From Planctomycetota bacterium (lineage in GTDB: Bacteria > Planctomycetota > PUPC01 > DSUN01): a stretch of 43,326 nucleotides of DNA. Every line of letters starts with the position of its first letter. The stretch's first letter is position 1. The stretch spans positions 1 to 43,326 of the forward strand of contig VGYW01000009.1 in the NCBI GenBank assembly GCA_016872875.1, read 5' to 3'. This document shows, in pieces, positions 1,911 to 35,722 of this stretch. The translations under genes and the position numbers were made by a program. The notes under the pieces were generated by a model that worked only from the letters and a program-made list of their open reading frames with translations, was not told the origin of the DNA and made no database searches.

Positions 1911-2050
1911 GGCGTGATACGTGATGCGTGATACGTGATGCGTGATACGTGATGCGTGATACGTGATGCGTGATACGTGATGCGTGAGAAGAGAAGAACG
2001 CCCGCTCTCTTGGTCTTCTCACGTATCACGTATCACGCATCACGCGTCAG
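1911..2050. repeat. Mirror tandem-repeat cassette, GTGATRC family
   Basis: Between rny and ymdB. The left arm (1911-1987) is about ten alternating 7-bp units GTGATAC and GTGATGC. A spacer of about 25-30 bases follows, and the right arm (2015-2050) carries the inverted units (GTATCAC, GCATCAC). GTGAGAAGA next to the spacer pairs with TCTTCTCAC on the other side, so the stem continues inward. The arms are unequal in length. The cassette ends just before the Shine-Dalgarno sequence of ymdB. Confidence 0.9.
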
Positions 2051-2065
2051 CTCGAGGAAGACCAT

Positions 2066-2845
2066 TTGACCATCCAGGCTTTGATGATCGGCGACGTGAT
2101 CGGGCGGCCGGGGCGCCACTTCCTGCGCGAGAACCTGCGCCGCATCGTCGCGAGGGAGGGGATAGACCTGGTCATCGCGAACGGCGAGAACAGCTCGGGC
2201 GGGCTCGGGATAACGAAGGCCACCGCCGCCGAGCTCCACGCCAGCGGCGTCCACGTGATCACGACCGGCGACCACGTTTGGCGGCGGCGCGACGTCGCCG
2301 CGGCCCTGGCCGAGGACCCGCGCCTCCTGCGGCCCCAGAACTTCCCAGCCGGCGCGCCTGGGGCCGGCATGGTCACTGTCACCACCGCCGCCGGCGTCCC
2401 AGTGCGGGTCATCAGCCTCCTCGGACGCGTCTTCTTGGAACCGATTGACTGCCCGTTCGAGTGCGTGGAGCGCATCCTGGAGCGTTCGCCCGGGCCGCCG
2501 GCGACGATAGTGGACTTCCACGCGGAGGCGACCTCCGAGAAGGGGGCGATGGGCTGGTTCCTCGACGGGCGGGTGAGCGCCGTCCTCGGCACCCACACCC
2601 ACGTCCAGACCGCCGACGAACGCCTCCTTGACAACGGCACCGCGTTCATCACGGACATCGGGATGACCGGGGCCTGTCGCTCGATCATCGGCCGCAAGGT
2701 AGAGCAGGTGATCGAGCGGCTCCGCACGCGCCTCTACGTCGAGATGGACGTGGCGGCCGGCGCCGTGATGATGTGCGGCGTCATCGTCTCCGTGAATCCC
2801 GAGACCGGCCGCGCCGTGGGCATCAGGCGGGTGGCTGAGACGTGA
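2066..2845 (+). CDS. ymdB: YmdB/TIGR00282-family metallophosphoesterase
   Basis: Predicted dinuclear-metal phosphodiesterase. B. subtilis YmdB hydrolyses 2',3'-cyclic nucleotides and affects biofilm and RNA-decay phenotypes. The 259 residues match the family length. Visible motifs are MIGDVIGRPG at the start (first metal ligand), NGENSSGGLGI, TTGDHVW and GTHTHVQTAD with the C-terminal histidines. The start is a TTG with GAGGAAG eight bases upstream. The next in-frame ATG at 2084 would remove the first beta strand. The gene lies 159 bp after rny, its usual neighbour, behind a mirror cassette, and its last bases overlap the xseA start. Confidence 0.92.
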   Translation: MTIQALMIGDVIGRPGRHFLRENLRRIVAREGIDLVIANGENSSGGLGITKATAAELHASGVHVITTGDHVWRRRDVAAALAEDPRLLRPQNFPAGAPGAGMVTVTTAAGVPVRVISLLGRVFLEPIDCPFECVERILERSPGPPATIVDFHAEATSEKGAMGWFLDGRVSAVLGTHTHVQTADERLLDNGTAFITDIGMTGACRSIIGRKVEQVIERLRTRLYVEMDVAAGAVMMCGVIVSVNPETGRAVGIRRVAET

Positions 2846-4110
2846 TGCGGCCTGTGGCCGCAACCAAAGGGGCAAAACCCAGGTTGGGCACACTAGAAAG
2901 CGAAGGCGTCCTGAGCGTCAGCGAGCTCACCCAGCGCATTCGCCGCTCACTCGAGGACGAGTTCGGCCAGGTCGCTGTGGTCGGAGAGGTCTCCAACCTG
3001 CGCCGGCCGGCGTCGGGCCACGTCTACCTGACGCTGAAGGACTCCGGCGCCCAGATCGCGGCGGTGGTCTGGCGCAGCAGCGCCAGCCGCCTGCGGTTCG
3101 AGCTCGAGGACGGCATGGAGGTGATCGTGAGCGGCTCCCTGACGGTCTACGAGCCGCGCGGGAGCTACCAGATCATCATCTCCTCGATTCGGCCGAAGGG
3201 CCTGGGCGCGCTCCAGCTCGCCTTCCTCCAGTTGAAGGACAAGCTGGAGAAGGAGGGGCTGTTCCGGCCGGAGCTCAAGAAGCCGCTCCCCTACTTGCCC
3301 GACTGCGTGGGCGTGGTCACGTCGGCCACCGGGGCGGCGATCCAGGACATCCTGAAGGTGCTCGCGCGGCGGTTCCCGCCTGCGCACGTCGTGCTGCGGC
3401 CAGTGCGCGTGCAGGGCGAGGGGGCGGCGGAGGAGATCGCGCGGGCGATTGCCGAGTTCAACGAGTGGGGCGGGGCCGACGTCCTCATCGTCGGCAGGGG
3501 CGGCGGGAGCATCGAGGACCTCTGGGCGTTCAACGAGGAGGCCGTCGCCCGCGCCATCCACGCCTCGCGCATCCCCGTCATCTCGGCCGTGGGGCACGAG
3601 ATAGACGTGACGATAGCAGACTTCGTGGCGGACCGCAGGGCGCTGACGCCGACCGAGGCGGCGGAGCTCGTCCTGCCCGACCTCCGCGAACTGCTCGAGC
3701 GGCTCGGCGGGTTGCGCGGACGGCTCGCGACCGCGCTCCGCGGCCAGGTGGACCTGGCGCGGGCGACGCTGGCGCGGCTGCGGGCCAGCTACGGCTTCCG
3801 CGCGCCCATCGAGCTCGTCCGGCGGCACGAGCAGCGGCTCGACGACCTGGCCGGCGCCCTCGCGCTCGCCGTGCGCCGGCGCATCGAGTCGGCACGCGAG
3901 CGCCTGGCCACCGCCGGCGGGCGCCTGGAGGCGCTAAGCCCCCTCCGCGTCCTCGAACGCGGCTACTCGATCACCCGCGAGCCGGAGACCAGGCGGGTCA
4001 TCCGCGCCGCCGGCCAGGTGCAGCCAGGGCAACTCGTGGAGACCCTGCTCCACGCGGGACGCATCGTGTCGAGAGTGGAGAAAGCCAATGGGCAAGCGGC
4101 TGTCGTTTGA
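2842..4110 (+). CDS. xseA: Exodeoxyribonuclease VII large subunit
   Basis: Catalytic subunit of exonuclease VII, which degrades single-stranded DNA to short oligonucleotides in the cytoplasm. It has 422 residues. An N-terminal OB fold (about 20-120, with GEVSNLRRPASGH and the SYQIII strand) is followed by the XseA catalytic core: GVVTSATGAAIQDI, the glycine-rich GRGGGSIEDLWAFN, and AVGHEIDVTIADFVAD. A coiled-coil C-terminal part ends with the conserved ERGYSITR. The start is GTG at 2842 or the adjacent ATG at 2845, so it overlaps the end of ymdB by a few bases and is probably translationally coupled. Its last 23 bases overlap xseB. Confidence 0.95.
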   Translation: MMRPVAATKGAKPRLGTLESEGVLSVSELTQRIRRSLEDEFGQVAVVGEVSNLRRPASGHVYLTLKDSGAQIAAVVWRSSASRLRFELEDGMEVIVSGSLTVYEPRGSYQIIISSIRPKGLGALQLAFLQLKDKLEKEGLFRPELKKPLPYLPDCVGVVTSATGAAIQDILKVLARRFPPAHVVLRPVRVQGEGAAEEIARAIAEFNEWGGADVLIVGRGGGSIEDLWAFNEEAVARAIHASRIPVISAVGHEIDVTIADFVADRRALTPTEAAELVLPDLRELLERLGGLRGRLATALRGQVDLARATLARLRASYGFRAPIELVRRHEQRLDDLAGALALAVRRRIESARERLATAGGRLEALSPLRVLERGYSITREPETRRVIRAAGQVQPGQLVETLLHAGRIVSRVEKANGQAAVV

Positions 4111-4342
4111 AAAGAACCTCGAAGCCCTCGAGAAGATCGTCGAGGAGCTTGAGAGCGGGACTCTGACGCTCGACGAGGCCCTTGAGCGCTACGAGCGTGG
4201 GGTTGCCGCGCACAAGGAGTGCAGCGACATCCTCGCCGCCGCCGAGAAGCGGCTCGAGGTCCTCACGAAAGGCCCCGACGGCAAGTTCGAGACGCAACCG
4301 CTGAAGCCAGGCGCAGGCTCGGCGCGCGAGGACGAAGCATGA
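4088..4342 (+). CDS. xseB: Exodeoxyribonuclease VII small subunit
   Basis: Small helical partner that assembles on XseA in exonuclease VII. The 84 residues are typical for the family. The sequence shows the two-helix signature FEKNLEALEKIVEELESG followed by TLDEALERYERGV. A GTGGAGAAAG ribosome-binding region precedes the ATG. The gene overlaps xseA by 23 bp at its start and ispA by 4 bp (ATGA) at its end, so the three genes form one transcription unit. Confidence 0.95.
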   Translation: MGKRLSFEKNLEALEKIVEELESGTLTLDEALERYERGVAAHKECSDILAAAEKRLEVLTKGPDGKFETQPLKPGAGSAREDEA

Positions 4343-5223
4343 TGCCCGAGCCGCTGGCGCGCTGCATGGAGGCCGCGAGGGAGCAGGTGGACGCGGCCCT
4401 GGACGGCTTTCTTCCGAGGCCGGAAGGCCCCGCCTCTCGCCTTGCCGAGGCCATGCGCTACAGCGTCTTCGCGGGCGGCAAGCGGCTGCGCCCGGCCCTG
4501 GTCCTTCTCGCCGCCGACCTCTGCGGCGGGCGGCGCGAGCTCGCGCTCCCGCCCGCCTGCGCCATCGAGCTCGTCCACACATATTCCCTCATCCACGACG
4601 ATCTGCCCGCGATGGACAACGACGACCTTCGGCGCGGGCGGCCATCGTGCCACAGGGCCTTCGACGAGGCGACGGCGATCCTGGCGGGCGACGCTCTGCT
4701 CACCCTGGCCTTCGAGGTGCTCGTGCGCCCCCCCTGCGAGGGGCACGCCGCGGCGCTCGTGGCGGAGCTCGCGCGCGCCGCGGGCGCCGCGGGCATGGCC
4801 GCGGGCCAGATGTGCGACATGAGCCTGACCGGCACGGAGCCGACCGCTGAGGCGGTGGACTTCATCCACCGGCACAAGACGGCGGCTCTCATGAGCGCTG
4901 CCCTGCGGCTCGGCGCAATCGTGGCCGACGCACCCGACGCGGCTCGCGCCCGCCTCGGACGCTTCGGCGAGCTCCTCGGTCTGGCGTTTCAGATCACCGA
5001 CGACGCGCTCGACGTGGAGGTCCCCAGCGAACTCCTGGGGAAGACGGCGGGCAAGGATGCCTCTGAGGGCAAGATCACCTATCCCGCGGTGTTCGGGCTG
5101 GCCGAATCGCGCCGCCGGGCCGCCGAGCTGACCGAGCAAGCGATCGCGGAGCTTGAGCCGTTCGGCCCCTCCGCCGACCTCCTCCGCGACCTGGCGCGCT
5201 GGCTCGCCTCGCGTAGGTCATAG
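4339..5223 (+). CDS. ispA: Polyprenyl (farnesyl/geranyl) diphosphate synthase
   Basis: Short-chain trans-prenyl diphosphate synthase that condenses IPP with DMAPP or GPP to supply farnesyl or geranylgeranyl diphosphate. It has 294 residues. The first aspartate-rich motif is the bacterial DDLPAMDNDDLRRGRP form, the second is FQITDDALD, and the IPP-site GGKRLRP lies near residue 45. LGKTAGKDASEGK is typical of the IspA branch. The chosen ATG overlaps the xseB stop. An open frame extends upstream to 4219 but only covers xseB. The order xseA-xseB-ispA-dxs is common in bacteria. Chain length (C15 or C20) cannot be read safely from the sequence. Confidence 0.93.
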   Translation: MMPEPLARCMEAAREQVDAALDGFLPRPEGPASRLAEAMRYSVFAGGKRLRPALVLLAADLCGGRRELALPPACAIELVHTYSLIHDDLPAMDNDDLRRGRPSCHRAFDEATAILAGDALLTLAFEVLVRPPCEGHAAALVAELARAAGAAGMAAGQMCDMSLTGTEPTAEAVDFIHRHKTAALMSAALRLGAIVADAPDAARARLGRFGELLGLAFQITDDALDVEVPSELLGKTAGKDASEGKITYPAVFGLAESRRRAAELTEQAIAELEPFGPSADLLRDLARWLASRRS

Positions 5224-5284
5224 CTGAAACCTTGCGCGATGCCGCCAAAAGTGGTAAGAAGTAGGACATGAGAGGCATATCGGG

Positions 5285-7204
5285 ATGATTCTCGAGAGGA
5301 TCAATGGCCCGGCGGACGTGCGGCGGCTGCGGCGCGAGGAGCTGCCGCAGTTGGCGGCCGAGGTGCGCGAGGAGATCAGCCGCGTGGTCGCCGCCAACGG
5401 CGGCCACCTGGCCTCCAACCTCGGCACGGTGGAGCTGACGATCGCGCTCCACCGCTGCTTCGACTTCCGCCGCGACGCGCTGGTGTGGGACGTCGGCCAC
5501 CAGGCCTACACGCACAAGCTGCTGACCGGCCGCCGCGAGGAGTTCCACACGCTCCGCCAGCAGGGCGGCATCAGCGGGTTCCCGAACAAGGACGAGAGCC
5601 CCTACGACCCCTTCACCTGCGGCCACGCGGGCACTGCCATCTCGTCGGCCGTGGGGCTGGTGTGCGCGGACGCCCTTGCGGGCCGCCAGCGCCACGTGGT
5701 GGCGGTGGTGGGCGACGGCGCCCTCACCAACGGCGTGGCCCTCGAGGCCCTCAACCACGCGGGCGCACTCGGCAAGGACATTCTCGTCGTCCTCAACGAC
5801 AACAAGATGTCCATCAGCAAGACGGTCGGCGGCATCTCGATGTATCTCGAACGGGTCAGGTCGGCCCGCTTCTACAACCGTGCGAAGCGCGGGATACGGC
5901 GCTTCGTGCGGAGCCTGCCCGGGATCGGCAGCGCGGCCGAGACCGCCCTCGGACACCTCAAGGAGGGCATCAAGGTCGCCGTCGGTTCCGAGACGCTCTT
6001 CGACCAGATCGGCTTCCGCACGTTCGGGCCGGTGGACGGCCACCGGCTCGACGACCTTATCGAGCTGCTTGAGGCGGTGCGCGACCTGTCCGGCCCGGTG
6101 CTGCTGCACGTGGTCACAGAGAAGGGCCGCGGGCACCCCCAGGCGGCGAGCGACCCGAGCCGCTACCACAGCGCGGCGCCGGCCCAGGACCCCTGCCCCG
6201 TGCTCGAGCCGCCCAACGGCGGCTCGGGGCCGAGCTACACGACCGTGTTCTCGGAGGCCCTCTGCCGCCTGGCCGAGGAGCGGGACGACATCGTGGCGAT
6301 CACGGCGGCGATGGAGGAGGGCACCGGGCTCACCGAGTTCGCTCGCCGCTTCCCCGAGCGGTTCTTCGACGTCGGCATCTGCGAGGAGCACGCGGTCGCC
6401 TTCGCCGGCGGCCTGGCCGCGGCCGGCAGGAAGCCGGCCGTCGCCATCTACTCCACGTTCCTCCAACGGGCCTACGACCAGGTGTTCCACGACCTCTGCC
6501 TTCAGGGGGCGAGCGCCGTGGTGTGCATCGGGCGCGCGGGACTCGTCGGCGCCGACGGCCCCACCCACCACGGCACCTACGACGTTGCCTACCTGCGCCA
6601 CCTGCCGGGCCTGGTGCTGGCCGCCCCGAAGGACGGGGCGGAGCTGGAGGCGATGCTGGCCGCCGCCGCGGCCGCCGAGGGCGTGTGGGGCATTCGCTTC
6701 CCCAAGGCGCACGTGCCGGCGATCCAATGGCCCCAGGGCGCGCCGGTGGAGGTTGGGCAGGCCGAGCTTTTGCGCGACGGCGACGGCGTCGCGCTCGTGG
6801 CCTACGGGGCGATGGTGGAGCCGGCGTGGGAGGCGGCCACGCTCCTGGCCGAGCAGGGCATCGAGGCGGCCGTGGCCAACGCGCGGTTCGCAAAGCCCGT
6901 GGACGGCGCGCTCCTGGCCGCGCTCGCCGCCCGCGTGCCGCTGCTTGTGACCATCGAGGAGCACTCGGTGCTCGGCGGCTTCGGGTCCGCCGTGCTCGAG
7001 GCCCTTGCGGCGCTGGGCGCCCCTCGGTGCCGCGTGGAGCTGCTCGGCGTGCCCGACCGGTTCATCGAGCACGGGCGGCGCGAGGCGCTCCTCGACGGCT
7101 TGGGCCTGAGCGCCCAGGGCATTGCGGCCCGCGTGGCCGAGCTCCTCGCAACGCGGGGCGACTGGGCGGAGGAGCGCGCGGCATTGCTGATTGCTGATTT
7201 CTGA
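5285..7204 (+). CDS. dxs: 1-deoxy-D-xylulose-5-phosphate synthase
   Basis: Thiamine-diphosphate enzyme that joins pyruvate and glyceraldehyde 3-phosphate in the first step of the MEP isoprenoid pathway. It has 639 residues, close to the usual 620-640. Motifs are DVGHQAYTHKLLTGR, the ThDP-binding VVGDGALTNG...VLNDNKMSIS, FGPVDGH, the FDVGICEEHAV catalytic glutamate region and DGPTHHGTYD. The usual proline in GHQAYPHK is threonine here. The final codons (AALLIADF and stop) lie in a one-armed AATCAG-type tandem repeat, so the C-terminus seems set by repeat sequence. A weak TTGCGC-17-TAAGAA promoter candidate lies at 5232-5260 in the 61-bp gap. Confidence 0.94.
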   Translation: MILERINGPADVRRLRREELPQLAAEVREEISRVVAANGGHLASNLGTVELTIALHRCFDFRRDALVWDVGHQAYTHKLLTGRREEFHTLRQQGGISGFPNKDESPYDPFTCGHAGTAISSAVGLVCADALAGRQRHVVAVVGDGALTNGVALEALNHAGALGKDILVVLNDNKMSISKTVGGISMYLERVRSARFYNRAKRGIRRFVRSLPGIGSAAETALGHLKEGIKVAVGSETLFDQIGFRTFGPVDGHRLDDLIELLEAVRDLSGPVLLHVVTEKGRGHPQAASDPSRYHSAAPAQDPCPVLEPPNGGSGPSYTTVFSEALCRLAEERDDIVAITAAMEEGTGLTEFARRFPERFFDVGICEEHAVAFAGGLAAAGRKPAVAIYSTFLQRAYDQVFHDLCLQGASAVVCIGRAGLVGADGPTHHGTYDVAYLRHLPGLVLAAPKDGAELEAMLAAAAAAEGVWGIRFPKAHVPAIQWPQGAPVEVGQAELLRDGDGVALVAYGAMVEPAWEAATLLAEQGIEAAVANARFAKPVDGALLAALAARVPLLVTIEEHSVLGGFGSAVLEALAALGAPRCRVELLGVPDRFIEHGRREALLDGLGLSAQGIAARVAELLATRGDWAEERAALLIADF

Positions 7205-7206
7205 TC
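7186..7206. repeat. One-armed AATCAG-type repeat at the dxs end
   Basis: The last codons and the stop of dxs are TTGCTGATTGCTGATTTCTG, the reverse complement of the AATCAG/CAATCAG units seen inside the membrane-protein gene near 14563. No inverted second arm follows before nadK. Confidence 0.5.
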
Positions 7207-7223
7207 CCAATGAGCGTGAACCC

Positions 7224-8072
7224 ATGAAGCGGATCATCCTGTCGGCGGACACGCGGAAGCCGGCGGTTGCGGCGGCGGTGAGCGAGCTGCTGCCCTGGGT
7301 GCAGGCGCGCGCCGAGGTCGTGGCGCTCGACCTGGCGATGGACCGCGACCTGGAGCACGTGGAGGCCGACCTCGCGCTCATCCTGGGCGGCGACGGCGCC
7401 ATACTGTCGAGCGCGCGACGCCTCGGCCGCAACCAGCTCCCCGCCATCGGCGTCAACCTCGGCAAGTTCGGCTTCCTCGCCGAGGTCTCCCCAGAACAGC
7501 TCCGCGAGCGGTTCGACGACATCCTGGCCGGCCGCTACCGCCTCTCGTCGCGCATGCGTCTGTCGTGCGCCCTGGAGCAGGGCGGCAGGACCGTGGCGGA
7601 CGACCTGGCGCTCAACGACGTGGTGGTCTCGCGCGGCGCCCTGTCGCGCCTGGTGACGATCGGACTGGTTGTTGACGGGACGCGAGCGACGACTTACAAT
7701 GGGGACGGCGTGATCGTATCGACGCCGACGGGCTCGACGGCGCACTCCCTGTCGGCGGGGGGGCCGGTGATTGACCCCAGGCTCGAGGCCTTCGCCGTCA
7801 CGCCCATCTGTCCGCACACCCTCACCAACAGGCCCCTCGTCCTCCCGGCGGGGTGCGTGGTGGAGCTGTGCCTGGACGCCGCGCCGGTGGACGTCGGGCT
7901 GACCGTGGACGGACAGGTCTACCGGGAGCTCGGGCGCGGCGACAGGGTCATCATTCGCCGCGCGGCAAATGACTTCAGGCTCATTGACCTTGGCATACGG
8001 ACCTACTATGACACGCTCCGCGAAAAGCTCCACTGGAGCGGCAGCGCGCTCGACCATCGCAGTCGAGATTGA
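7224..8072 (+). CDS. nadK: NAD kinase
   Basis: Phosphorylates NAD to NADP. It has 282 residues. The family marks are clear: LILGGDGAIL (the GGDG motif, near residue 55), NLGKFGFLAE, LALNDVVVSRG, and YNGDGVIVSTPTGSTAHS with the nucleotide-binding TPTGS. The ATG at 7224 was chosen because the eleven codons before it (from 7191) overlap the end of dxs and its terminal repeat. It follows dxs by 19 bp. Its last 65 bases overlap the ferredoxin-like korD frame. Confidence 0.93.
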   Translation: MKRIILSADTRKPAVAAAVSELLPWVQARAEVVALDLAMDRDLEHVEADLALILGGDGAILSSARRLGRNQLPAIGVNLGKFGFLAEVSPEQLRERFDDILAGRYRLSSRMRLSCALEQGGRTVADDLALNDVVVSRGALSRLVTIGLVVDGTRATTYNGDGVIVSTPTGSTAHSLSAGGPVIDPRLEAFAVTPICPHTLTNRPLVLPAGCVVELCLDAAPVDVGLTVDGQVYRELGRGDRVIIRRAANDFRLIDLGIRTYYDTLREKLHWSGSALDHRSRD

Positions 8073-8259
8073 CGAGGCGCTCTGCAAGGGCTGCGGCCTC
8101 TGCGTGGCCTTCTGCCGGGAGCAGGCCATCGAGCTGGCGCCCACGCCGAACGTCCGCGGCGCCTACGCCGCGCGCGTCCTCGGCGGCAGGGCCTGCTGCG
8201 CCTGCCGCCACTGCGTCCTCATGTGCCCAGAGGCCGCCATCCGCCTCTTCCAGACCTAG
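8008..8259 (+). CDS. korD: 2-oxoacid:ferredoxin oxidoreductase, delta (ferredoxin) subunit
   Basis: Small electron-transfer subunit with two [4Fe-4S] clusters. Both binding motifs are seen: CKGCGLCVAFC and CCACRHCVLMCP, each CxxCxxCxxxC. From the ATG at 8008 the protein has 83 residues. An alternative ATG at 7969 would give 96. Either way the start lies inside nadK, out of frame, so the N-terminal 20-30 residues are uncertain; the conserved part begins near IDEALCKGC. The alpha, beta and gamma subunits follow downstream on the same strand, separated from it by a phosphoesterase gene, which supports a subunit role over a free ferredoxin. Confidence 0.8.
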   Translation: MTRSAKSSTGAAARSTIAVEIDEALCKGCGLCVAFCREQAIELAPTPNVRGAYAARVLGGRACCACRHCVLMCPEAAIRLFQT

Positions 8260-8277
8260 CTACCCAGGCACCAGCAA

Positions 8278-9033: not shown

Positions 9034-9070
9034 GCCGCGCGGCAGGCAGGTGGTAGACCCTGCCACGTAG

Positions 9071-9150
9071 GAGGATGGTTGGATGTATGGATGAATGGAT
9101 GTTTGTCTGACACCCATCCACCCCTCCATTCATCCATTCATCCCCTCCAT
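9071..9150. repeat. Mirror tandem-repeat cassette, GGATGAAT family
   Basis: Left arm of GGATG/GAATGGATG units (9071-9102), a spacer of about ten bases, and a right arm of CATCCA/CATTCATC units (9111-9150). It fills most of the gap between the phosphoesterase and korA and ends about 18 bp before the korA start. Confidence 0.88.
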
Positions 9151-9167
9151 GTTTCGGATAGGCTCTG

Positions 9168-10223: not shown

Positions 10224-10224
10224 T

Positions 10225-10326
10225 AATCGTCCTCGTCCCTCGTCCTCGTCCTTCGTCCTCGATCCTCTTCCCTTGTGACAGAGGGGACTCGAGGACGAGG
10301 ACGAGGGACGAGGACGAGGACGATTG
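10225..10326. repeat. Mirror tandem-repeat cassette, GAGGAC family
   Basis: Left arm AATCGTCCTCGTCCCTCG and further units (10225-10272), spacer TTGTGACA, right arm with GAGGACGAGGGACGAGGAC units ending CGATT (10281-10326). It fills the korA-korB gap. The same outer sequence returns in the cassettes at 11763 and 13159. Confidence 0.9.
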
Positions 10327-10350
10327 AAGAGCGACGATGGAGACAGGTAG

Positions 10351-11100: not shown

Positions 11101-11102
11101 GC

Positions 11103-11206
11103 AATTGCGGATTTGCGATTGCGGATTTCGGACCGAAGAACCGGGGCGACTGCTTCGTTCCCCTGGTCTGAAATCCGCAATCCGAAATCCGAAATCCGAA
11201 ATCTGA
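11103..11206. repeat. Mirror tandem-repeat cassette, AAATCCG family
   Basis: Left arm of GCGGATTT/CGGATTTCG units (11103-11132), a spacer of about 35 bases with its own small CCGGGG/CCCCTGG stem, and a right arm of GAAATCC/GCAATCC units (11169-11206). It ends ten bases before the korC start, right at the Shine-Dalgarno region. Confidence 0.9.
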
Positions 11207-11215
11207 GGAACGCAA

Positions 11216-11764
11216 GTGACTGAGCGTTTGATCATTGCGGGCTTCGGCGGACAGGGCGTCGTCTTCCTCGGTCGCCTTCTCGCCCACGCCATGATGCACG
11301 AGGGGATGAACGTCACCTGCCTCCCAGCCTACGGCCCGGAGGTCCGCGGCGGGTGGGCCAACTGCCACGTTGTCCTCTCCTCCGACGAAATCTACTCCCC
11401 CGCCGTCGCCCACCCGACCGCGCTCATCGTGATGAACCAGATCTCGTGGGGCCACTTCTCCCCGCACCTGGCGCCCGACGGGCTGGCCGTCGTCAACTCC
11501 TCGATGGCCAAGGCAGCTCCGGCGTTCCCCACGCAGCGCGTCCTCCCCGTCCCAGCGACCGCCCTGGCAAACGAGCTCGGCGACGTCCTCGCCACCAACA
11601 TGGTCATGCTCGGCGCATACAACCGCGCCCGCGGCCTGATGACGGTGGACGCCCTGCTCGAGCACCTACGCGCGGTCCTCGGGCCGCGCAAGGCCGGCCT
11701 CTTCGACCTCAACCGCCGCGCCATCCTGCGAGGCGCCGAGGCGGCGGCCGCGCCACAATCGTAA
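11216..11764 (+). CDS. korC: 2-oxoacid:ferredoxin oxidoreductase, gamma subunit
   Basis: Gamma subunit of the same complex (pyruvate/ketoisovalerate oxidoreductase catalytic domain), 182 residues. Visible family features are the N-terminal IIAGFGGQGVVFLGRLL and CLPAYGPEVRGGWANC. The GTG start at 11216 has GAGGAACG upstream. It is the last gene of the set. Its stop lies at the left edge of the nested palindrome that follows. Confidence 0.9.
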   Translation: MTERLIIAGFGGQGVVFLGRLLAHAMMHEGMNVTCLPAYGPEVRGGWANCHVVLSSDEIYSPAVAHPTALIVMNQISWGHFSPHLAPDGLAVVNSSMAKAAPAFPTQRVLPVPATALANELGDVLATNMVMLGAYNRARGLMTVDALLEHLRAVLGPRKAGLFDLNRRAILRGAEAAAAPQS

Positions 11765-12032
11765 TCGTCCTCGTCCCTCGTCCTCGCGACCAACACGTAA
11801 GCGCAACCACCGCAGTTCCTGCCCCCACCGACCTTGCGTCGGTGGGGCACAGGATTGGCAACTAGCCGAGCCCGCCACCCCCACACCCCCCTCTCCCACC
11901 GCCCGCCCGCCCGCGGGCGGGCGGTGGGAGAGGGGCAGAGGGTGAGGGCCGCCGTGAGTAGTTTCCAATCCTCTGCTCCACCGACGCAAGGTCGGTGGGG
12001 GCAAGAGTCGAGGACGAGGGACGAGGACGATT
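11763..12032. repeat. Triple nested palindrome between korC and the glycosyltransferase
   Basis: Three inverted repeats lie inside one another. The outer pair is the GAGGAC family (11763-11786 with 12009-12032, 24 bp, perfect by eye). The middle pair is at 11821-11845 and 11978-12002 (25 bp, perfect; GCCCCCACCGACC type). The inner pair is a CCCCTCTCCCACCGCCCGC arm and its mirror (about 11888-11935). Each layer is a different sequence family, as if one palindrome had been inserted in the loop of another. Confidence 0.9.
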
Positions 12033-12036
12033 GAAG

Positions 12037-13149: not shown

Positions 13150-13158
13150 GCCTGGTCC

Positions 13159-13260
13159 TATCGTCCTCGTCCCTCGTCCTCGTCCTCGACTCATCTCTTC
13201 TCCCCCGAGCCAAGCGAAGAGAATCGAGGACGAAGGACGAGGACGAGGGACGAGTACGAT
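13159..13260. repeat. Mirror tandem-repeat cassette, GAGGAC family
   Basis: Left arm ATCGTCCTCGTCCCTCG and more (13159-13190), a spacer with a CTCTT/AAGAG stem, right arm GAGGACGAAGGACGAGG and more, ending GTACGAT at 13260. It lies immediately after the glycosyltransferase stop. Confidence 0.88.
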
Positions 13261-13539: not shown

Positions 13540-15138
13540 TTGAGCAAGGACGCGGGTCGGGAACAGGCCAGCAGCCACTTCCGGGAGCGGTTTCTCGCCC
13601 TCGCCCTCCTCGCCGCCAGCAGCCTGGCGGTGCTCTGGGTGCTCTGGGCGCGGCCTACGCTCGGCGTCGCGGGCCAGTACCAGTACCCGTATCGTCCAGC
13701 CCAGCCGTGGGGAGTTGCGCCATTCATCTGCCTCGCGGGCCTCCCGCTCCTGTGGGGCTGGGTCCTTGTGTTGCGTGGCGGCGGGCCGTCTACCCGCAGA
13801 GCGGAGCGCCTCGCAGTCGGCCTTCTCACAGGGGGGAGCCTGGTCCTCCACCTTGCCACCGCCTGCCTGCCGAAGCACTTCACCGGCGCGGAGATGATGT
13901 GGCCCTTCGTCTGGAAGAACACCGAGGGCTCCTACGCGACCGAGGCCGCCAAGCTGGACGACGCCCGGCGATTCGTCTCCAACTATGCGCACTGGCTCGA
14001 TGTCAGCCCGGTTCCCGGCACGACGCGTTGGGTCCACGTTCATCACCCCCAGGTCCACCCGCCGGGCCCGATCCTCGCCTTTGTGGGCATCGAGCGGTTC
14101 TTCCGCGCCTTCCCCAGCCTTGCGGCCGGGGTCACGGATTGGGCGCAGCGGAATCTCCCTTCGAGCGCAATCCTCAGCCAGCGGGAGCAGGCCGGCGGCC
14201 GCCACGGCTTCCCAGCCGCCACGTCGCTCACGATGGCCCTCCTGACCGTCGTCGTGGCGTCGCTCGCGCCGCTGGCTTGCTACCTGGCCGTGCGGCCCCT
14301 CTGGCCGCCGGCGGCCTCGCTCACGGCCGCGGGGCTGACCGCGCTCGTTCCCGGCACCCACCTCTTCAGCCCCTCCTTCGACCAGGCATACCCCGTCTTC
14401 ACCCTGCTCCTCGTCTGCTGCGGGGTGCGAGCCGTCGTCCGCCGCAGCGCCGCCTGGGGCGCCGCCTTCGGCGCCGTCCTCTACGCCCTCGCCTTCTTCC
14501 ACGTCGCCTTCGCCCTCGTCGCGCTCTGCCTCCTCCTCACGCTCTGCCTCACGCGGCGGGCCGAAATCAGCAATCAGAAATCAGAAATCAGAAATCACTT
14601 CTTGCGCCCCCTCTCCGCCGCCGCCCTCTCCTTCCTCACCCTCTCTGCCCTCCTCCTCGGCTGGCTCGGCTACCCGACGCTTCGGGTGATCCTGCTGTGC
14701 CTTCGGAACAACGGCCTCTTCAACGCCGCGGCCGCCCGCACCTGGTGGCCGTGGGTGGCCGTGGTGCCCTTCGAGTTCGCACTCTCTCTGGGCTTTGGCC
14801 TTGCCCTCGTCGTGGCCTGCGGCTGGCTCAGCGAGATGGTCGCCGCCGTCCGCGCCCGCTCGCTTCGTGCCCGGAGCGCCCTCCTCCTCGTCCCCGTGGC
14901 GATTCTGGCCGTCCTGGACCTCTGCGGGATGAACCGTGGCGAGACCGCCCGCCTCTGGCTCTTCCTCACCCCGCTCCTCGTCCTGGGTGCCGTAGACTTC
15001 CTCTTCCGCCGCGCGCGCGAGCCCAGAGGGCTCCTTGCCCGCCTCGCCGCCGCCCAGGCCATCCAGACCCTCCTCTTCGCCATCGCACTCGACACCGCCT
15101 GGACGAGCACGTTCATGGTGAAGCTGCTCGATTCGTAG
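13540..15138 (+). CDS. Polytopic membrane protein, glycosyltransferase-like
   Basis: Integral membrane protein of 532 residues with about nine to eleven hydrophobic segments, the first at about residues 18-38. A large outward-facing loop (about 125-205) contains PGTTRWVHVHHPQVHPPGP; a His-Pro-rich HPPGP segment of this kind occurs in GT39/ArnT-like polyprenol-dependent glycosyltransferases, but I cannot assign a family with certainty. The TTG start has only a weak GCGGAG upstream. Residues 342-353 are encoded by a tandem AATCAGA repeat that entered the gene in frame, in a loop between membrane segments. It follows a GT4 gene, consistent with a role in surface glycans (inference). Confidence 0.75.
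   Translation: MSKDAGREQASSHFRERFLALALLAASSLAVLWVLWARPTLGVAGQYQYPYRPAQPWGVAPFICLAGLPLLWGWVLVLRGGGPSTRRAERLAVGLLTGGSLVLHLATACLPKHFTGAEMMWPFVWKNTEGSYATEAAKLDDARRFVSNYAHWLDVSPVPGTTRWVHVHHPQVHPPGPILAFVGIERFFRAFPSLAAGVTDWAQRNLPSSAILSQREQAGGRHGFPAATSLTMALLTVVVASLAPLACYLAVRPLWPPAASLTAAGLTALVPGTHLFSPSFDQAYPVFTLLLVCCGVRAVVRRSAAWGAAFGAVLYALAFFHVAFALVALCLLLTLCLTRRAEISNQKSEIRNHFLRPLSAAALSFLTLSALLLGWLGYPTLRVILLCLRNNGLFNAAAARTWWPWVAVVPFEFALSLGFGLALVVACGWLSEMVAAVRARSLRARSALLLVPVAILAVLDLCGMNRGETARLWLFLTPLLVLGAVDFLFRRAREPRGLLARLAAAQAIQTLLFAIALDTAWTSTFMVKLLDS
14563..14597 (+). repeat. In-frame AATCAGA tandem repeat inside the membrane-protein gene
   Basis: About 35 bases of GAAATCAG/CAATCAG/AAATCAG units encode EISNQKSEIRNH. 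The A+T-rich, 7-bp periodic sequence stands out from the surrounding G+C-rich codons and resembles intergenic cassette arms. No mirror arm is present. Confidence 0.8.
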
Positions 15139-16751: not shown

Positions 16752-16852
16752 AATTGCGGATTTCGGATTTCGGATTTCGGATTTCGGATAGCGCCGCGGC
16801 GTGTGCTTGTTCGACTCTTGAATCCGCAATCCGAAATCCGAAATCCGAAATC
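16752..16852. repeat. Mirror tandem-repeat cassette, AAATCCG family
   Basis: Left arm of GGATTTC units (16752-16789), a spacer of about 30 bases, right arm of AATCCGC/AATCCGAAATCC units (16820-16852). It fills the gap between the DUF58 and BatA-like genes and ends 15 bp before the start codon. Confidence 0.9.
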
Positions 16853-16866
16853 GCAAAGAGCCAGAC

Positions 16867-20654: not shown

Positions 20655-20757
20655 CAGCGGGACGGGTGGGACTTGTGGGACGGGTGGGACCGGCGGGACT
20701 GGTGCCACCGATTCGTCCCACAGGTCCCACGCGTCCCACCGGTCCCACAGGTCTCAC
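20655..20757. repeat. Mirror tandem-repeat cassette, GGGAC family
   Basis: Left arm of GGGACGGGTGGGACTTGTG-type units (20655-20703), a spacer of about nine bases, right arm of GTCCCACAGGTCCCACGCG-type units (20713-20757). It lies between the cupin gene and the glycoside hydrolase. Confidence 0.87.
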
Positions 20758-22573: not shown

Positions 22574-22659
22574 GACCGGACGCGTGACGCGTGACGCGTG
22601 ACAAGAGGAAGAGGCGCCTGGGTCTTCTCTGGTCACGCGTCACGGGTCACGCGTCATGC
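22574..22659. repeat. Mirror tandem-repeat cassette, GCGTGAC family
   Basis: Left arm of GCGTGAC units (22579-22601), a spacer containing AAGAGGAAGAGG and TCTTCTCT, right arm of GTCACGC units (22632-22657). It lies between dhaL and the lsrF-like gene. The dhaL stop (22654-22656 on the plus strand) lies in the outer edge of the right arm. It is a variant of the GTGATRC family at 1911. Confidence 0.88.
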
Positions 22660-23292
22660 GCCTGCTACGGATGCCGAAAACCCCCTAAAGATAAGCGAAA
22701 CCGATGTTGCTCCTGGGTCTTGATGTCCAATGGTGCGGTCGCCGAGGTTCTTGGCGCGGCCGAATCTGGCCGGGAAGTTGCGGGTTGACAGGGCGCCTTG
22801 CTCGGCGGCAGTGGCGGCGGCGGCCAGGGCGGCTGTAACGTCCTGGCCGCCTTCGGCGGCGGAGCGCATGGCGGCTACCGCGGGGATGAGGGCGTCCATC
22901 ATCGTCTTGTCGCCCACCTGGGCCTTGCTGTGGGCATGAAGGGCACGGAGGCCAGCCCCGAAAAGGGCGGCCAGGCCCTTCGCGTCCACAGGCTTCCTGC
23001 CGGCCACGGCTTCGGCCATGCCGAGGAAGAAGGTGCCGAAGAGCGGCCCCGTGGCCCCGCCGTCAACGCCCATCACGGCCCAGCCGATGTCGTTGAGGAG
23101 GCTCTTGAGGTCCTTCTTCTTGCACTCGGCGATGGCCTTCTCGACGAGGCCCATGGCGCGGGCCATGGTGGTGCCGTGGTCGCCGTCGCCGCCCACGGAG
23201 TCGAGCTGGGAGAGCATGGCCTGGTTGGCCCGCACCTGGTCTGCGGCGGAGCGGAGCATGGAGGCGAACTCGCCGTAGCCTACCGACTCCAT
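22654..23292 (-). CDS. dhaL: Dihydroxyacetone kinase family, DhaL (nucleotide-binding) subunit
   Basis: ADP/ATP-binding subunit of a DhaK-DhaL kinase, 212 residues. The three Mg-binding aspartates are seen at 31, 36 and 38 (LDSVGGDGDHG, against LDREIGDADHG in E. coli). GPLFGTFF, GDKTMMDAL and the C-terminal IGHQDPGATS complete the signature. It follows dhaK by 148 bp. A PTS-type DhaM partner is not in the window, so phosphate could come from ATP directly or from a distant PTS component. The stop codon lies in the edge of the following cassette. Confidence 0.9.
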   Translation of the reverse strand: MESVGYGEFASMLRSAADQVRANQAMLSQLDSVGGDGDHGTTMARAMGLVEKAIAECKKKDLKSLLNDIGWAVMGVDGGATGPLFGTFFLGMAEAVAGRKPVDAKGLAALFGAGLRALHAHSKAQVGDKTMMDALIPAVAAMRSAAEGGQDVTAALAAAATAAEQGALSTRNFPARFGRAKNLGDRTIGHQDPGATSVSLIFRGFSASVAGA

Positions 23293-23305
23293 GGCGTTTC
23301 CCTAT

Positions 23306-23396: not shown

Positions 23397-23440
23397 AGGA
23401 GCAAGCCATCTGCTCCTGCCGAGTGCCGACTGCCGACTGG

Positions 23441-24470: not shown

Positions 24471-24551
24471 ATCGTCGTCGTTGTCGTCGTCGTCCTCGTG
24501 CTCGAACACTCCTGGTTCGACGACGACGACGAGGACGACGACGAGGACGAG
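24471..24551. repeat. Mirror tandem-repeat cassette, GACGAC/GAGGAC family
   Basis: Left arm TCGTCGTCGTTGTCGTCG and more (24471-24505), a spacer of about ten bases, right arm of GACGACGACGACGAGG-type units (24518-24551). It lies between the VOC gene and dhaK, ending at the VOC stop codon. A near copy lies at 32856-32952. Confidence 0.9.
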
Positions 24552-24880: not shown

Positions 24881-24978
24881 GATGGCTGGATTGGATGAAT
24901 GGATGGGTGGATGGGTGGATGAATGTCAGAGTACGGCAGCCCTCTTGCACCCATCCAATCATCCAATCGTCCATTCCT
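24881..24978. repeat. Mirror tandem-repeat cassette, GGATGAAT family
   Basis: Left arm of GGATGAATGGATGGGTGG-type units (24881-24925), a spacer of about 20 bases, right arm of CATCCAATCATCC-type units (24946-24978). It lies between the EamA transporter and the VOC gene. Confidence 0.88.
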
Positions 24979-25921: not shown

Positions 25922-25997
25922 CGAGGATGAATGGATGAATGGATGGGTGGATGAGTGTCAGACAATCATGCATTCATCCAACCATCCATTCATCCCC
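25922..25997. repeat. Mirror tandem-repeat cassette, GGATGAAT family
   Basis: Left arm GAGGATGAATGGATGAATGG and more (25922-25957), a spacer of about 15 bases (TCAGACAATCATG), right arm CATTCATCCAACCATCC and more (25971-25997). It lies between the HExxH protein gene and the transporter gene. Confidence 0.88.
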
Positions 25998-26030
25998 GTC
26001 GGTTCGGCGCGCGAGCGCCGTGCAGGAAAT

Positions 26031-31529: not shown

Positions 31530-31741
31530 CGCAGTCCCGAAGGGACAGCAGTGGGTAGCCGGCGGCTTCAGCCGCCGGATCGGGGCACAGGCGCAGCACA
31601 GTCCCGAAGGGACGGCAGACGCCCGCGGGAAGACGGCCCGACGCATGTTTCTGCCGTCCCTTCGGGACTTCCCTACTTCTGGCGCACGAGTCCGGCGGCT
31701 GAAGCCGCCGGCTACCCACTGTGCTCCCTTCGGGAGCAAGA
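31530..31741. repeat. REP-like element, family A, complete two-armed copy
   Basis: Outer arms carry GTGGGTAGCCGGCGGCTTCAG (left, about 31550-31579) and its mirror (31691-31724). The inner pair is 31600-31619 with 31650-31669 (20 bp, perfect; GTCCCGAAGGGACGGCAG type). It accounts for most of the 31472-31900 gap between the divergent TPR and DUF6807 genes. I see nothing else there except a short, A+T-richer stretch at 31790-31890 that could hold a promoter. Confidence 0.9.
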
Positions 31742-32836: not shown

Positions 32837-32855
32837 CTGCCGTTGAGACTGTTGG

Positions 32856-32952
32856 ATCGTCGTCGTTGTCGTCGTCGTCCTCGTCGTCGAATGTCCAGGG
32901 CAGCGGAGGCCAGAATCTCGACGACGACGACGAGGACGACGACGAGCACGAG
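32856..32952. repeat. Mirror tandem-repeat cassette, GACGAC/GAGGAC family
   Basis: Left arm TCGTCGTCGTTGTCGTCG and more (32856-32889), a spacer of about 28 bases, right arm of CGACGACGACGACGAGG-type units (32919-32952). The left arm is almost identical to that of the cassette at 24471, while the spacers differ completely. Confidence 0.9.
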
Positions 32953-35146: not shown

Positions 35147-35179
35147 CTGCTCCCGAGGTGGCGTTTGGCCACAACCAAC

Positions 35180-35247
35180 GAGGATGATTGGATGGGTGGA
35201 TGAATGGATGGTTGCCTGACACCCATCCACCCCTCCATTCATCCTCT
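35180..35247. repeat. Mirror tandem-repeat cassette, GGATGAAT family
   Basis: Left arm GAGGATGATTGGATGGGTGG and more (35180-35211), spacer TTGCCTGACA, right arm CCCATCCACCCCTCCATTC and more (35222-35247). It lies just after the HEAT protein stop. Confidence 0.87.
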
Positions 35248-35314
35248 GCATGCCGGGTGCCACGCCCAAACTTGCTCGGGCGTGCGGCAATGCGCTACCT
35301 CTCACACAAACGAA

Positions 35315-35350
35315 ATCGCCGCGCCCCGGGCTCCCCGGAGGCGCGGCGAT
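35315..35350. terminator. Perfect 11-bp GC hairpin, possible terminator
   Basis: ATCGCCGCGCC (35315-35325) pairs with GGCGCGGCGAT (35340-35350) around a 14-base loop that itself contains CCGGG and CCCGG. No T-tract follows on either strand, so intrinsic termination is uncertain. It stands between the HEAT gene end and the convergent mini-gene end. Confidence 0.35.
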
Positions 35351-35361
35351 CTCATGAGCAG

Positions 35362-35440
35362 CATGAATGGAGGAATGGATGTTTGGATGAATGAAGGATT
35401 CCCTGCCACCCATCCATTCATCCACCCATCCATTCATCCC
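35362..35440. repeat. Mirror tandem-repeat cassette, GGATGAAT family
   Basis: Left arm GCATGAATGGAGGAATGG and more (35362-35398), a spacer of about nine bases, right arm ACCCATCCATTCATCCACCC and more (35408-35440). It follows the stop of the minus-strand mini-gene by 11 bp. Confidence 0.88.
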
Positions 35441-35451
35441 CTTCGACGAGC

Positions 35452-35526
35452 CTACTTCTTCCCCTTCTTCGCAGGCTTCTTGGCCGCTTTCTTCTTCGGC
35501 GCGCTGCACCCACAGGTCTTGCACAT
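35452..35526 (-). CDS. 24-residue Cys/Lys-rich mini-protein
   Basis: Tiny gene, too short for usual gene calling. The protein starts MCKTCGCSAPKKK and ends in a lysine/alanine tail (PAKKGKK). The CxxCxC cluster at residues 2-7 suggests metal or cluster binding; a similar CxxCGC start occurs in HypB, where it binds nickel. The basic tail would suit nucleic acid or other acidic partners. The evidence that it is a real gene is a strong AAGGAG eight bases before the ATG, a clean amino-acid bias and an independent position between two cassettes. I do not recognise a named family. It is divergent from the 35772 gene. Confidence 0.65.
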   Translation of the reverse strand: MCKTCGCSAPKKKAAKKPAKKGKK

Positions 35527-35616
35527 GCCACTCGCTCCTTTCCACCAAGAGGCCGCGGACGCGAACAGGCAACGCACGACCCCATTATGCCAGCCCGCCT
35601 GGGAAATGCAAGGGGG

Positions 35617-35722
35617 AGAAATGAGAAGGGACCGAAGGGACCACAGGGACCTAAGGGACGCAAGCCACCCCTCCCCTCTTGATGTCCCTTAGGTCCCTGT
35701 GGTCCCTGATGTCCCTTTCTCC
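35617..35722. repeat. Mirror tandem-repeat cassette, GGGACC family
   Basis: Left arm GAAGGGACCGAAGGGACCAC and more (35622-35665), a spacer of about 15 bases, right arm GATGTCCCTTAGGTCCCTG and more (35681-35722). A 23-bp core is perfectly paired by eye. It lies between the divergent mini-gene and the 35772 gene, and ends directly before the -35 box of the latter. Confidence 0.9.

Follow-up and report, generated by a model that had tools for sequence, protein, structure and literature searches.

The gaps between genes in a 43-kb stretch of planctomycete DNA (the window, 43,326 nucleotides analysed as a whole) contain cassettes in which a tandem array of short units is followed by a loop and then by a second array in inverted orientation. 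We put at roughly two in three the probability that these cassettes are mobile DNA: small, non-autonomous palindromic elements with tandem-array arms, moved by an enzyme acting in trans. They are dispersed, differ in presence or absence between relatives and prefer certain gaps; copies at unlinked places share loops, and a cassette of a related type forms an exact in-frame extra segment in an ileS gene.

Results

Tandem-armed cassettes in the window and a close relative

Reading of the window gave 16 two-armed cassettes and four single arms, listed below without strand. G152 is a close relative (2.08 Mb, approximately 70-92% DNA identity to the window), and the state of its matching gap is included.

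1912..2049, cassette 1: heptamer CGTGAYN family, 5' arm of about 11 units and 3' arm of about 4; rny-ymdB gap, empty in G152 and also in the order-mate G167
9072..9147, cassette 2: octamer TGGATGNN family, short loop; G152 gap empty
10226..10325, cassette 3: hexamer GACGAG/GAGGAC family; korA-korB gap; other palindrome family in the G152 gap
11103..11204, cassette 4: heptamer ATTKCSG (FRISDFG) family; korB-korC gap; TGGATGNN cassette in the G152 gap
11763..12032, cassette 5: GACGAG arms nested around a 190-nt non-tandem palindrome (11817-12006); G152 gap empty
13160..13260, cassette 6: GACGAG family; G152 gap empty
16752..16853, cassette 7: ATTKCSG family; DUF58-BatA gap, 2 nt past the stop codon; at the same point G152 has a cassette of this class whose unit (ATTTCCG/ATTGCCG) and loop are different
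20657..20757, cassette 8: nonamer GTGGGACNN family; G152 gap holds an 890-nt insert with one single GTGGACANN array and no two-armed cassette
22579..22660, cassette 9: CGTGAYN family; G152 gap holds a 681-nt insert with no tandem array
24472..24550, cassette 10: GACGAC variant of the hexamer family; TGGATGNN cassette in the G152 gap
24889..24976, cassette 11: TGGATGNN family; G152 gap empty
25922..25998, cassette 12: TGGATGNN family; non-tandem palindrome and shorter gap in G152
32857..32952, cassette 13: GACGAC variant; non-tandem palindrome in G152
35182..35244, cassette 14: TGGATGNN family; no aligned G152 stretch across
35360..35443, cassette 15: TGGATGNN family; no aligned G152 stretch across
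35626..35717, cassette 16: nonamer AAGGGACNN family; RNA fold z -10.6; no aligned G152 stretch across
7183..7205, single arm: ATTGCTG units
14563..14597, single arm: GAAATCA units, inside the ORF at 13540-15138
36852..36881, single arm: AATCCGT units, then AAGAAGAAGAG
39733..39771, single arm: GTGATGC units, with GAGAAGA at the end

An automatic hairpin scan (arm score of at least 18) returned 19 hairpins in the window, 11 of which pass a strict tandem-arm filter; one of the 11 pairs the 35182 left arm with the 35360 right arm. The 9072, 11103 and 13160 cassettes fail the filter because their arms are more mismatched, and the 11763 cassette because it is nested. The first-pass annotation had described two-armed mirror structures of several unit families in at least thirteen gaps, and both the structures and their variety are confirmed by reading and by the scan; one genome holds at least seven families with a period of 6-9.

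A further 105 distinct tandem-armed cassettes are present in G152, where three 5-kb stretches occur twice and exact duplicates were removed before these counts; nine of its 469 hairpins of any kind are exact duplicates of another. The median size of the tandem cassettes (n=116) is 90 nt, with arms of 31 and a loop of 28, and the whole element is an imperfect palindrome and so has the terminal inverted repeats of a MITE. Among intergenic tandem arrays, 60/252 have no inverted partner within 250 bp (a first count, 185/403, included coding repeats). At gathering thresholds Rfam matched no cassette, its matches being two Acido-Lenti-1 RNAs outside them. It is clear that the structures are not random, as had been proposed: an order-3 Markov control of 240 kb gave one hairpin of any kind, and in 1.30 Mb from 80 loci of other bacteria there were 24 hairpins, a single one of them tandem-armed.

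Turnover between relatives

The first-pass annotation had suggested comparing the same gaps between relatives. Of the 13 window cassettes whose gap could be aligned with G152, five have an empty gap there and five another palindrome family; two face a longer insert without a two-armed cassette, one of these inserts holding a single array, and one faces a cassette of its own class built from other units. The converse is also seen, with TGGATGNN cassettes present in G152 and none in the window at the 9-nt gap 39132-39142 and at 23260-23465, so that presence and absence differ in both directions. Exact insertion boundaries are out of reach in G152 because it is too diverged, and at one filled site there is additional sequence on either flank.

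Individual cassettes have dispersed kin. Cassette 2 has relatives spread through G152, mostly at 84-92%, and cassette 3 is found at 22 places there at 82-90% over approximately 90-115 nt, many of them full length including the loop; among 14 of these copies aligned by eye the flanks are unrelated in nine and common in five. In G152 the TGGATGNN cassette pattern produces 265 overlapping matches; the other 293 Planctomycetota genomes, G167 among them, have none, which marks a lineage-specific burst of this family. Two-armed GGATTNN-type cassettes occur in 11/294 Planctomycetota and 11/247 Acidobacteriota genomes. Reversed patterns, used as the control for the genome searches, matched no genome, or one genome in one search. 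Two cassette patterns were also compared with viral contigs for phage carriage, and neither has an exact match there.

Copies within genes

Cassettes of the GGATTNN type lie in frame in unrelated genes of other genomes. In ileS (L323) the cassette is a 33-codon in-frame insert, and its 33 residues fall between residues 417 and 418 of a solved IleRS, which has nothing equivalent there. In dnaE2 (L331) two near-identical copies lie in frame in one gene and are alike through the loop. In hypD an orthologous cassette is in frame in three genomes (L311-L313), with a net gain over Thermococcus HypD of only 8 residues. The earlier suggestion that 'FGFRISDFG'-like peptides are translations of such elements is thus upheld, but to call them spurious ORFs is too strong for some, since in ileS, dnaE2 and hypD the repeat peptide is within the reading frame of the gene. 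HASRITHHASR-like peptides of other uncultured genomes may be translated repeats as well, as the first-pass annotation suggested.

Position relative to genes

Gene calls were crude (GC3 based) and were re-done with the elements masked. The 116 cassettes then divide into 90 between co-directional genes, 12 in divergent and 7 in convergent gaps, 4 in genes and 3 ambiguous; all gaps of at least 60 nt divide 535/163/136 (co-directional/divergent/convergent), giving P = 1.9e-5 on the 109 gap cassettes. An earlier count (n=67) had given 45 co-directional, 17 in-gene, 2 convergent, 2 ambiguous and 1 divergent. By heptamer family, the co-directional share is 10/11 for CGTGAYN, 7/8 for CGTAATN, 3/4 for CGTSCCN and 7/10 for ATTKCSG. 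Placement before a start codon between co-directional genes, as first described, is accurate for the gene orientation; the stop codon, however, is just as near, the median distances being 10 nt from the upstream stop and 24 nt to the next start. No terminator T-run was noticed at the cassettes by reading.

Search for a mobiliser and for marks of insertion

G152 has 19 matches to Y1 transposases, 17 of them above the cut-off; G167 has 4 and Scalindua 18. Y1/RAYT enzymes gained no support as mobilisers of the cassettes: two tandem cassettes lie within 1 kb of the 17 Y1 genes where 1.8 are expected, and the proposed check for a co-occurring transposase thus showed no linkage for Y1. Palindromes of another, non-tandem sort border several of the Y1 genes.

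For 115 elements, whose ends are inexact, the two 14-nt flanks have words in common as often as shuffled pairs do, giving no sign of a target-site duplication. The REP tag GTAG is at 7/232 cassette ends (11.1 when shuffled). CGTC is at 32/232 ends (12.8 when shuffled) and at 7/178 once the GACGAG family is left out; the excess is not counted as a REP tag because the unit of that family contains CGTC.

Arms, loops and competing explanations

It might be that the cassettes are selected as RNA hairpins, folding in polycistronic mRNA for processing, stabilisation or attenuation. The stable stems first predicted were indeed found, with z-scores of -3.5 to -10.6 in the 6/16 window cassettes folded (-78.5 kcal/mol and z -7.8 for cassette 1), and the position between co-directional genes directly past stop codons would suit such a role, as would the reported transcription of most of the comparable Xanthomonas repeats (PMC4692102). 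The variable positions of paired units match above chance in CGTGAYN arms (15/25 against 6.0 expected) and GACGAG arms (102/133 against 41.9), although a fixed inherited order of units could do likewise, and match at chance level in TGGATGNN (15/71 against 16.0), ATTKCSG (8/31 against 7.1) and CGTAATN (12/21 against 13.3). The description of the second arm as the inverted first arm accordingly holds for two families and not for TGGATGNN. GGATTNN arms from other genomes (25 cassettes, 21 loci) gave 29/48 against 9.2, which at face value runs counter to independence of the arms; it is counted for neither side because species whose private units differ were pooled in the shuffle. Given also the five of 13 gaps that are empty in G152 and the kindred copies inside ileS, dnaE2 and hypD, RNA selection is unlikely as the explanation.

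Alternatively, the arrays could be binding sites, paired head to head, for a family of DNA- or RNA-binding proteins that recognises degenerate units. Units with fixed and free positions (TGGATGNN, AAGGGACNN, CGTGAYN, GGATTNN) would be expected of such sites, as would the three families whose arms keep the fixed positions and not the pairing of the free ones, and IHF/HU or a global regulator has been proposed for paired 7-9-mers of Geobacter (PMC2700814). The gaps are, however, internal to operons with few divergent (promoter) ones, the cassettes turn over between relatives, many different units are present in one genome and no protein was identified in a search that covered Y1 transposases; we consider this quite improbable.

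The loops bear on a further possibility, synthesis in situ, by which a repeat-adding enzyme would add one and the same short unit to the two 3' ends of a break before these are joined. This would account for inverted orientation, unmatched variable positions, variable tips, single arms and the failure to detect a target-site duplication. The spacers had been described as unique, which is only partly so: GAGAAG/CTTCTC occurs 7.60 times per kb in loops, 1.26 in coding and 0.87 in free intergenic DNA (approximately 6-9 fold more), 42 loop pairs score at least 12 as against 0.33 after shuffling, and unlinked TGGATGNN copies have loops in common (L126, L249, L262). Shared loops, the dnaE2 copies near-identical through the loop and the common GAGAAG core therefore point to copying, and in-situ synthesis is very unlikely. 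Equally slight is the chance of its templated form, in which a telomerase-like enzyme would make arms of 6-9-nt units at a break or displaced strand. If true, it would explain unmatched arms, single arms, tips that look like junctions, a set of units peculiar to each genome and the undetected target-site duplication, with later whole-element copying giving the shared loops.

Chance or assembly artefact, to which the fragmented state of the G152 draft (at least 850 contigs) might lend some colour, is already refuted by the Markov and other-bacteria controls, the recurrence of window families in the separate genome G152 and the reversed-pattern controls.

Discussion

The mobile-element reading outlined at the start would place the cassettes in kind with REP, MITE and Rickettsia palindromic elements, but with arms built from a degenerate 6-9-nt unit repeated in tandem. 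The whole element, arms and loop, would be copied to new places by the enzyme in trans, which we infer together with the direction of each gain or loss. Insertions would persist mainly where harm is small, immediately past a stop codon and ahead of the start region of the co-directional gene that follows, and rarely in frame inside a gene; selection may thus lie behind the positional bias. After insertion the tip would drift fast and the fixed unit positions be kept, probably because of slippage-driven homogenisation and because the unit may be the site recognised by the mobilising factor. The aligned copies, by reading, do keep arms better than tips, as had been noted. Against mobility we count that no target-site duplication was detected, that no mobiliser was found in a search for Y1 only, that the in-gene cases are of the GGATTNN type in other genomes and not of the window families, and that the tips vary more than simple copying would lead one to expect.

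The literature searched holds no paper on these unit families or on a multi-family tandem-armed element. A set of paired repeats, Gmet_I, was described in 2009 from Geobacter metallireducens, reportedly with Aklujkar as first author. The architecture is already in part described there and for Xanthomonas/Nostoc heptamers, and the earlier view that nothing like it was known does not stand, paired inverted arrays being described in both papers (PMC4692102, PMC2700814). Rehm et al. 2015 report G-rich heptamers (GGGAATC in Xanthomonas, GGGGA(C/T)T in Nostoc), whose convergent pairs number 70 in Xcc and 75 in Xac; the repeats lie between aligned ORFs, with few between divergent ones (PMC4692102). 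The heptamer cassettes share with them a tandem unit in which some positions are fixed and others free (GGGANTN there), the convergent pairing and the place between aligned ORFs near stop codons. Unlike those repeats, whose G-tracts are able to form G-quadruplexes, most units here have GG tracts only (by reading, TGGATGNN, ATTKCSG, CGTGAYN and GACGAG have at most GG, AAGGGACNN and GTGGGACNN have GGG) and there are at least seven families with a period of 6-9; the gains and losses, the turnover of families and the copies within genes are shown here.

In the Gmet_I paper the 'global regulator binding sites' have tandem units of 8 or 8-9 nt in classes 1-2, paired on opposite strands at a variable distance, and five tandem heptamers in class 3; they are read as possible IHF/HU sites, and three sets are unique to G. 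metallireducens (PMC2700814). The tandem short units paired on opposite strands are shared with the window cassettes, whose units differ from GTTGCTYN of class 1; the class-1 unit pair was found in 0/11 genomes, mostly Desulfobacterota relatives and by their titles without G. metallireducens. REP elements with RAYT transposases, as treated by Di Nocera et al. 2013, are similarly dispersed palindromes near gene 3' ends and sometimes in genes, including dnaE2, but have units of 20-40 bp, whereas the cassettes have a median of 90 nt, tandem arms, no GTAG/CGTC tag and no detected RAYT linkage (PMC3733652). Rickettsia palindromic elements insert in frame in unrelated protein genes according to a review that cites Ogata 2000/2002 (PMC10969869); the GGATTNN-type palindromes in ileS, dnaE2 and hypD resemble them in this in-frame mode and differ in having arms of tandem 7-mers and hosts among Acidobacteriota and Planctomycetota. 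A Porphyromonas gingivalis MITE with a minisatellite reportedly also has tandem repeats inside a small inverted-repeat element (PMC4596501).

If the cassettes are mobile, one poorly understood kind of mobile DNA would tie together scattered notes on Xanthomonas/Nostoc heptamers, Geobacter 'global regulator sites' and FRISDFG-like peptides in draft genomes, and such elements would fill many of the larger intergenic gaps in some bacteria. Protein-coding palindromes, best known from Rickettsia, would be extended to Acidobacteriota and Planctomycetota through the in-frame insertions in isoleucyl-tRNA synthetase and an error-prone DNA polymerase. It would then become testable which enzyme mobilises elements whose hallmark is a pair of inverted arrays of a degenerate 6-9-nt unit.

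Cassettes and unit families

The window has a G+C content of 68% and carries many ordinary housekeeping genes, including rny, ymdB, xseA, dxs, nadK, a 2-oxoacid oxidoreductase gene, DUF58/BatA and dak1/dak2. The first-pass annotation had described intergenic structures in which a tandem array of short units is followed by a spacer and then by the inverted array; these were indeed found, with a unit of 6-9 nt, in 16 gaps or gap parts, and single arms are present at 4 further places. The cassettes, named here by their start positions, fall into the following families.

CGTGAYN, unit of 7 nt
ATTKCSG, unit of 7 nt
TGGATGNN, unit of 8 nt
GACGAG/GAGGAC/GACGAC, unit of 6 nt
AAGGGACNN or GTGGGACNN, unit of 9 nt

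The draft genome of a close relative, G152, adds CGTAATN, CGTSCCN, CAAGCCG, GAGCCGC, CAGTCGG, AATGACC and others. A TGATCCGAC array is also present at 43065-43104; in related G152 arrays (L120 6082, L160 5479, L161 4199 and L218 2147) such units and their complement follow one another in turn, and there is no second, inverted arm.

It is clear that the cassettes exceed chance. A scan for long inverted repeats (arm score at least 18, each arm at most 130 nt from the centre) returned 19 hairpins in the window and, in G152, 224 in 988 kb and 469 in 2.08 Mb, 9 of the latter being exact duplicates; order-3 Markov sequence gave 1 in 240 kb. Tandem-armed hairpins numbered 117 in G152 and the window together, or 116 without one duplicate (window 11, G152 105), while 80 loci of other bacteria (1.30 Mb) held 24 hairpins, of which one, in a Geomonas, was tandem-armed. 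With coding arrays included, 218 of 403 tandem arrays had an inverted partner at most 170 nt away, and 44 of 403 a direct partner.

Dispersed copies and turnover

The cassettes are dispersed copies. In a DNA search with window 1800-12100, cassette 10226 matched 22 places in G152 at 82-90% identity on the better strand, and cassette 9072 had further matches there, mostly at 84-92%. Across 14 aligned copies of 10226 the arms agree, the inner loop agrees in part and the tip varies; 5 of the 14 share their flanks too and are therefore part of a longer repeat. Three TGGATGNN copies (L126, L249 and L262) have a common loop at unlinked loci with unrelated flanks. Loop pairs scoring at least 12 numbered 42, compared with 0.33 in shuffled loops, and 39 of the 42 were within one family. 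For TGGATGNN cassettes, G152 has 265 matches (overlapping ones counted), whereas the 293 other Planctomycetota genomes have none.

G152 was the closest whole genome in a search of 294 Planctomycetota genomes, its rny being 82% identical in amino acids to that of the window, which makes a planctomycete source for the window very probable; the rny match (C784, L087) has three internal stops, possibly an assembly or alignment effect. Most of the window is covered by syntenic G152 contigs at ~70-92% DNA identity, and 13 of the 16 cassettes lie in gaps that can be aligned; no G152 stretch aligns across the remaining three (35182-35717). None of the 13 compared gaps holds a clearly identical element in G152. 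Five are empty there (17-64 nt, no array or hairpin; opposite 1912, 9072, 11763, 13160 and 24889), and the rny-ymdB gap of cassette 1912 is also empty in an order-mate, G167. Another five hold a different family: non-tandem palindromes opposite 10226, 25922 and 32857, and TGGATGNN cassettes opposite 11103 and 24472. Two have longer inserts: opposite 20657 one of 890 nt with a single GTGGACANN array (L208 7194-8085), and opposite 22579 one of 681 nt that contains no array; the former also has a short open frame beginning MKTLNVHEAKTGL. Opposite 16752 there is a cassette of the same class that begins at the equivalent position behind the stop codon but has a different unit and loop. The reverse was also seen, with TGGATGNN cassettes in G152 at the window's 9-nt gap 39132-39142, where extra sequence flanks the element on both sides, and at 23260-23465. 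Sequence divergence between the two genomes, at filled and empty sites alike, is too great to place exact boundaries. Elements turn over, present in one relative and absent from another, while gene order stays.

Position relative to genes

Using approximate, GC3-based gene calls made with the elements masked, 90 of the 116 cassettes were placed in co-directional gaps, 12 in divergent and 7 in convergent gaps; 4 fell inside a called gene, and 3 could not be assigned. Gaps of at least 60 nt comprise 535 co-directional, 163 divergent and 136 convergent, so that the cassettes are in excess in co-directional gaps (P = 1.9e-5). For the 90 co-directional cassettes, the median distance to the upstream stop is 10 nt and that to the next start 24 nt.

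Conservation of units, arms and loops

Units consist of fixed and free positions, and the agreement of free positions between paired units was compared with expectation; the hairpins used had been selected for pairing. Matches were at chance level for TGGATGNN, despite this pairing-based selection (15/71, 16.0 expected), for ATTKCSG (8/31, 7.1 expected) and for CGTAATN (12/21, 13.3 expected); therefore, in some families, the two arms appear to be separate arrays built on a degenerate motif, neither copied from the other. Values for AAGGGACNN (4/19, 1.6 expected, P 0.056) and CGTSCCN (6/14, 3.8 expected, P 0.14) lay above expectation, but not clearly so. CGTGAYN (15/25, 6.0 expected) and GACGAG (102/133, 41.9 expected) were above chance, and in these two a fixed unit order is probably inherited. 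GGATTNN loci of other genomes gave 29/48 against 9.2 expected, but here species with different units are mixed.

A GAGAAG/CTTCTC core recurs in the loops of different families, at 7.60 per kb compared with 1.26 in coding and 0.87 in free intergenic DNA; the ATTKCSG and AAGGGACNN loops contain no GAGAAG. GAAGA is enriched in the loops of non-tandem hairpins too (44/230, 9.1 expected), and is therefore a habit of the lineage that does not set tandem arms apart.

Non-tandem palindromes

The following non-tandem features were located in the window; all five palindromes cluster with G152 relatives.

11817-12006, non-tandem palindrome, matched in G152 by DNA search (as 11812-12006)
13419-13490, non-tandem palindrome
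15368-15514, non-tandem palindrome
15573-15720, non-tandem palindrome
31535-31735, non-tandem palindrome
23344-23388, + strand, Acido-Lenti-1 RNA (Rfam match)
31533-31578, - strand, Acido-Lenti-1 RNA (Rfam match), one arm of the 200-nt palindrome 31535-31735

The first of these palindromes is nested within a GACGAG cassette, whose arms lie on either side of it, and the last belongs to a family dispersed in G152. Since the second Acido-Lenti-1 match is an arm of this dispersed palindrome, Acido-Lenti-1 may here belong to a repeat element.

Other genomes and copies within genes

Of 294 Planctomycetota genomes, 11, including G152, contained two-armed CGGATTN cassettes, and one other was positive for the reversed-pattern control; that genome, G205, matched the control six times and may carry a two-armed family with a mirrored unit. 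Two-armed GGATTNN cassettes were found in 11 of 247 genomes of Acidobacteriota, the phylum of a Terriglobia record (control 0), and a Scalindua locus has a two-armed ATTTCGG cassette. Two cassette patterns had 0 exact matches in viral contigs.

Some cassettes, in single genomes or small groups, lie within predicted genes. That of L323 is within a 99-nt stretch of ileS (TIGR00392, 1e-274); residues 452-484 of the predicted IleRS fall between positions 417 and 418 of the solved IleRS structure 8c9e, which lacks an equivalent segment, and both sides align. At L331 two cassettes of nearly the same sequence, loop included, occupy two places of one predicted error-prone DNA polymerase gene (NF004225, 7e-218; 669 residues over 578 profile positions). 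Three related genomes (L311, L312 and L313) share an orthologous cassette, read as FRISDFG, inside hypD, assigned by TIGR00075 for L311 and L312, by alignment to 2z1d for L311 and through the aligned reading frame for L313. By eye, its arms and loop are conserved at least as well as the surrounding coding DNA; the net gain of the L311 HypD over Thermococcus HypD is 8 residues. In the window, a BatA-like ORF contains a palindrome (18448-18500) and a 33-nt repeat (18891-18969) in frame (peptide GGTGLRPVSP), possibly another in-gene insertion.

Discussion

Related arrangements have been described. Xanthomonas GGGAATC heptamers are reported to lie between aligned ORFs, close to stop codons and often as convergent pairs; they are mostly transcribed, have no known function and are as a rule not linked to insertion sequences (Rehm et al. 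2015, PMC4692102). For the Geobacter metallireducens genome, different classes of tandem 7-9-mers are described that form pairs on opposite strands and are interpreted as possible IHF/HU sites (PMC2700814), and the TAACTGA repeats of Beggiatoaceae are described as direct, inverted only once (PMC4679880). REPs (repetitive extragenic palindromes) are reported to include copies inside dnaE2 (Di Nocera et al. 2013, PMC3733652), and a MITE review describes in-frame Rickettsia palindromes and considers a similar process conceivable in other prokaryotes (PMC10969869). Compared with what these accounts describe, several features are new. A single genome combines many unit families of one architecture, and turnover is seen gap by gap. 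This architecture recurs in additional genomes from two phyla, the free positions of the two arms are independent in some families, and copies lie in frame inside genes.

The best account of the cassettes is a palindromic element mobilised in trans with selection on its insertion sites: an enzyme acting in trans would spread the element, and selection would decide which insertion places survive. The search for the mobiliser covered the Y1 transposases. G152 has 19 matches, 17 of them above the cut-off, and within 1 kb of these 17 genes lie 2 tandem cassettes (1.8 expected) and 11 non-tandem hairpins (5.8 expected). Some of the latter fit ordinary REP/RAYT pairs; the Y1 genes at L244, L245, L247 and L249, which have palindromes such as AAAGACTCCGGGAGTCTTT or CCTCCCGAAGGTTCCAAT nearby, are likely to form such pairs in this planctomycete. 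No target-site duplication was detected at the cassettes, nor was a GTAG/CGTC tag found there.

Lower weight is given to the cassettes being RNA hairpins kept by selection, an explanation consistent with the predicted folds considered below, and likewise to their being protein-binding arrays or products of repeat synthesis in situ. Whatever the origin of the cassettes, they are likely to affect mRNA, because stable RNA folds were predicted for all six cassettes that were folded.
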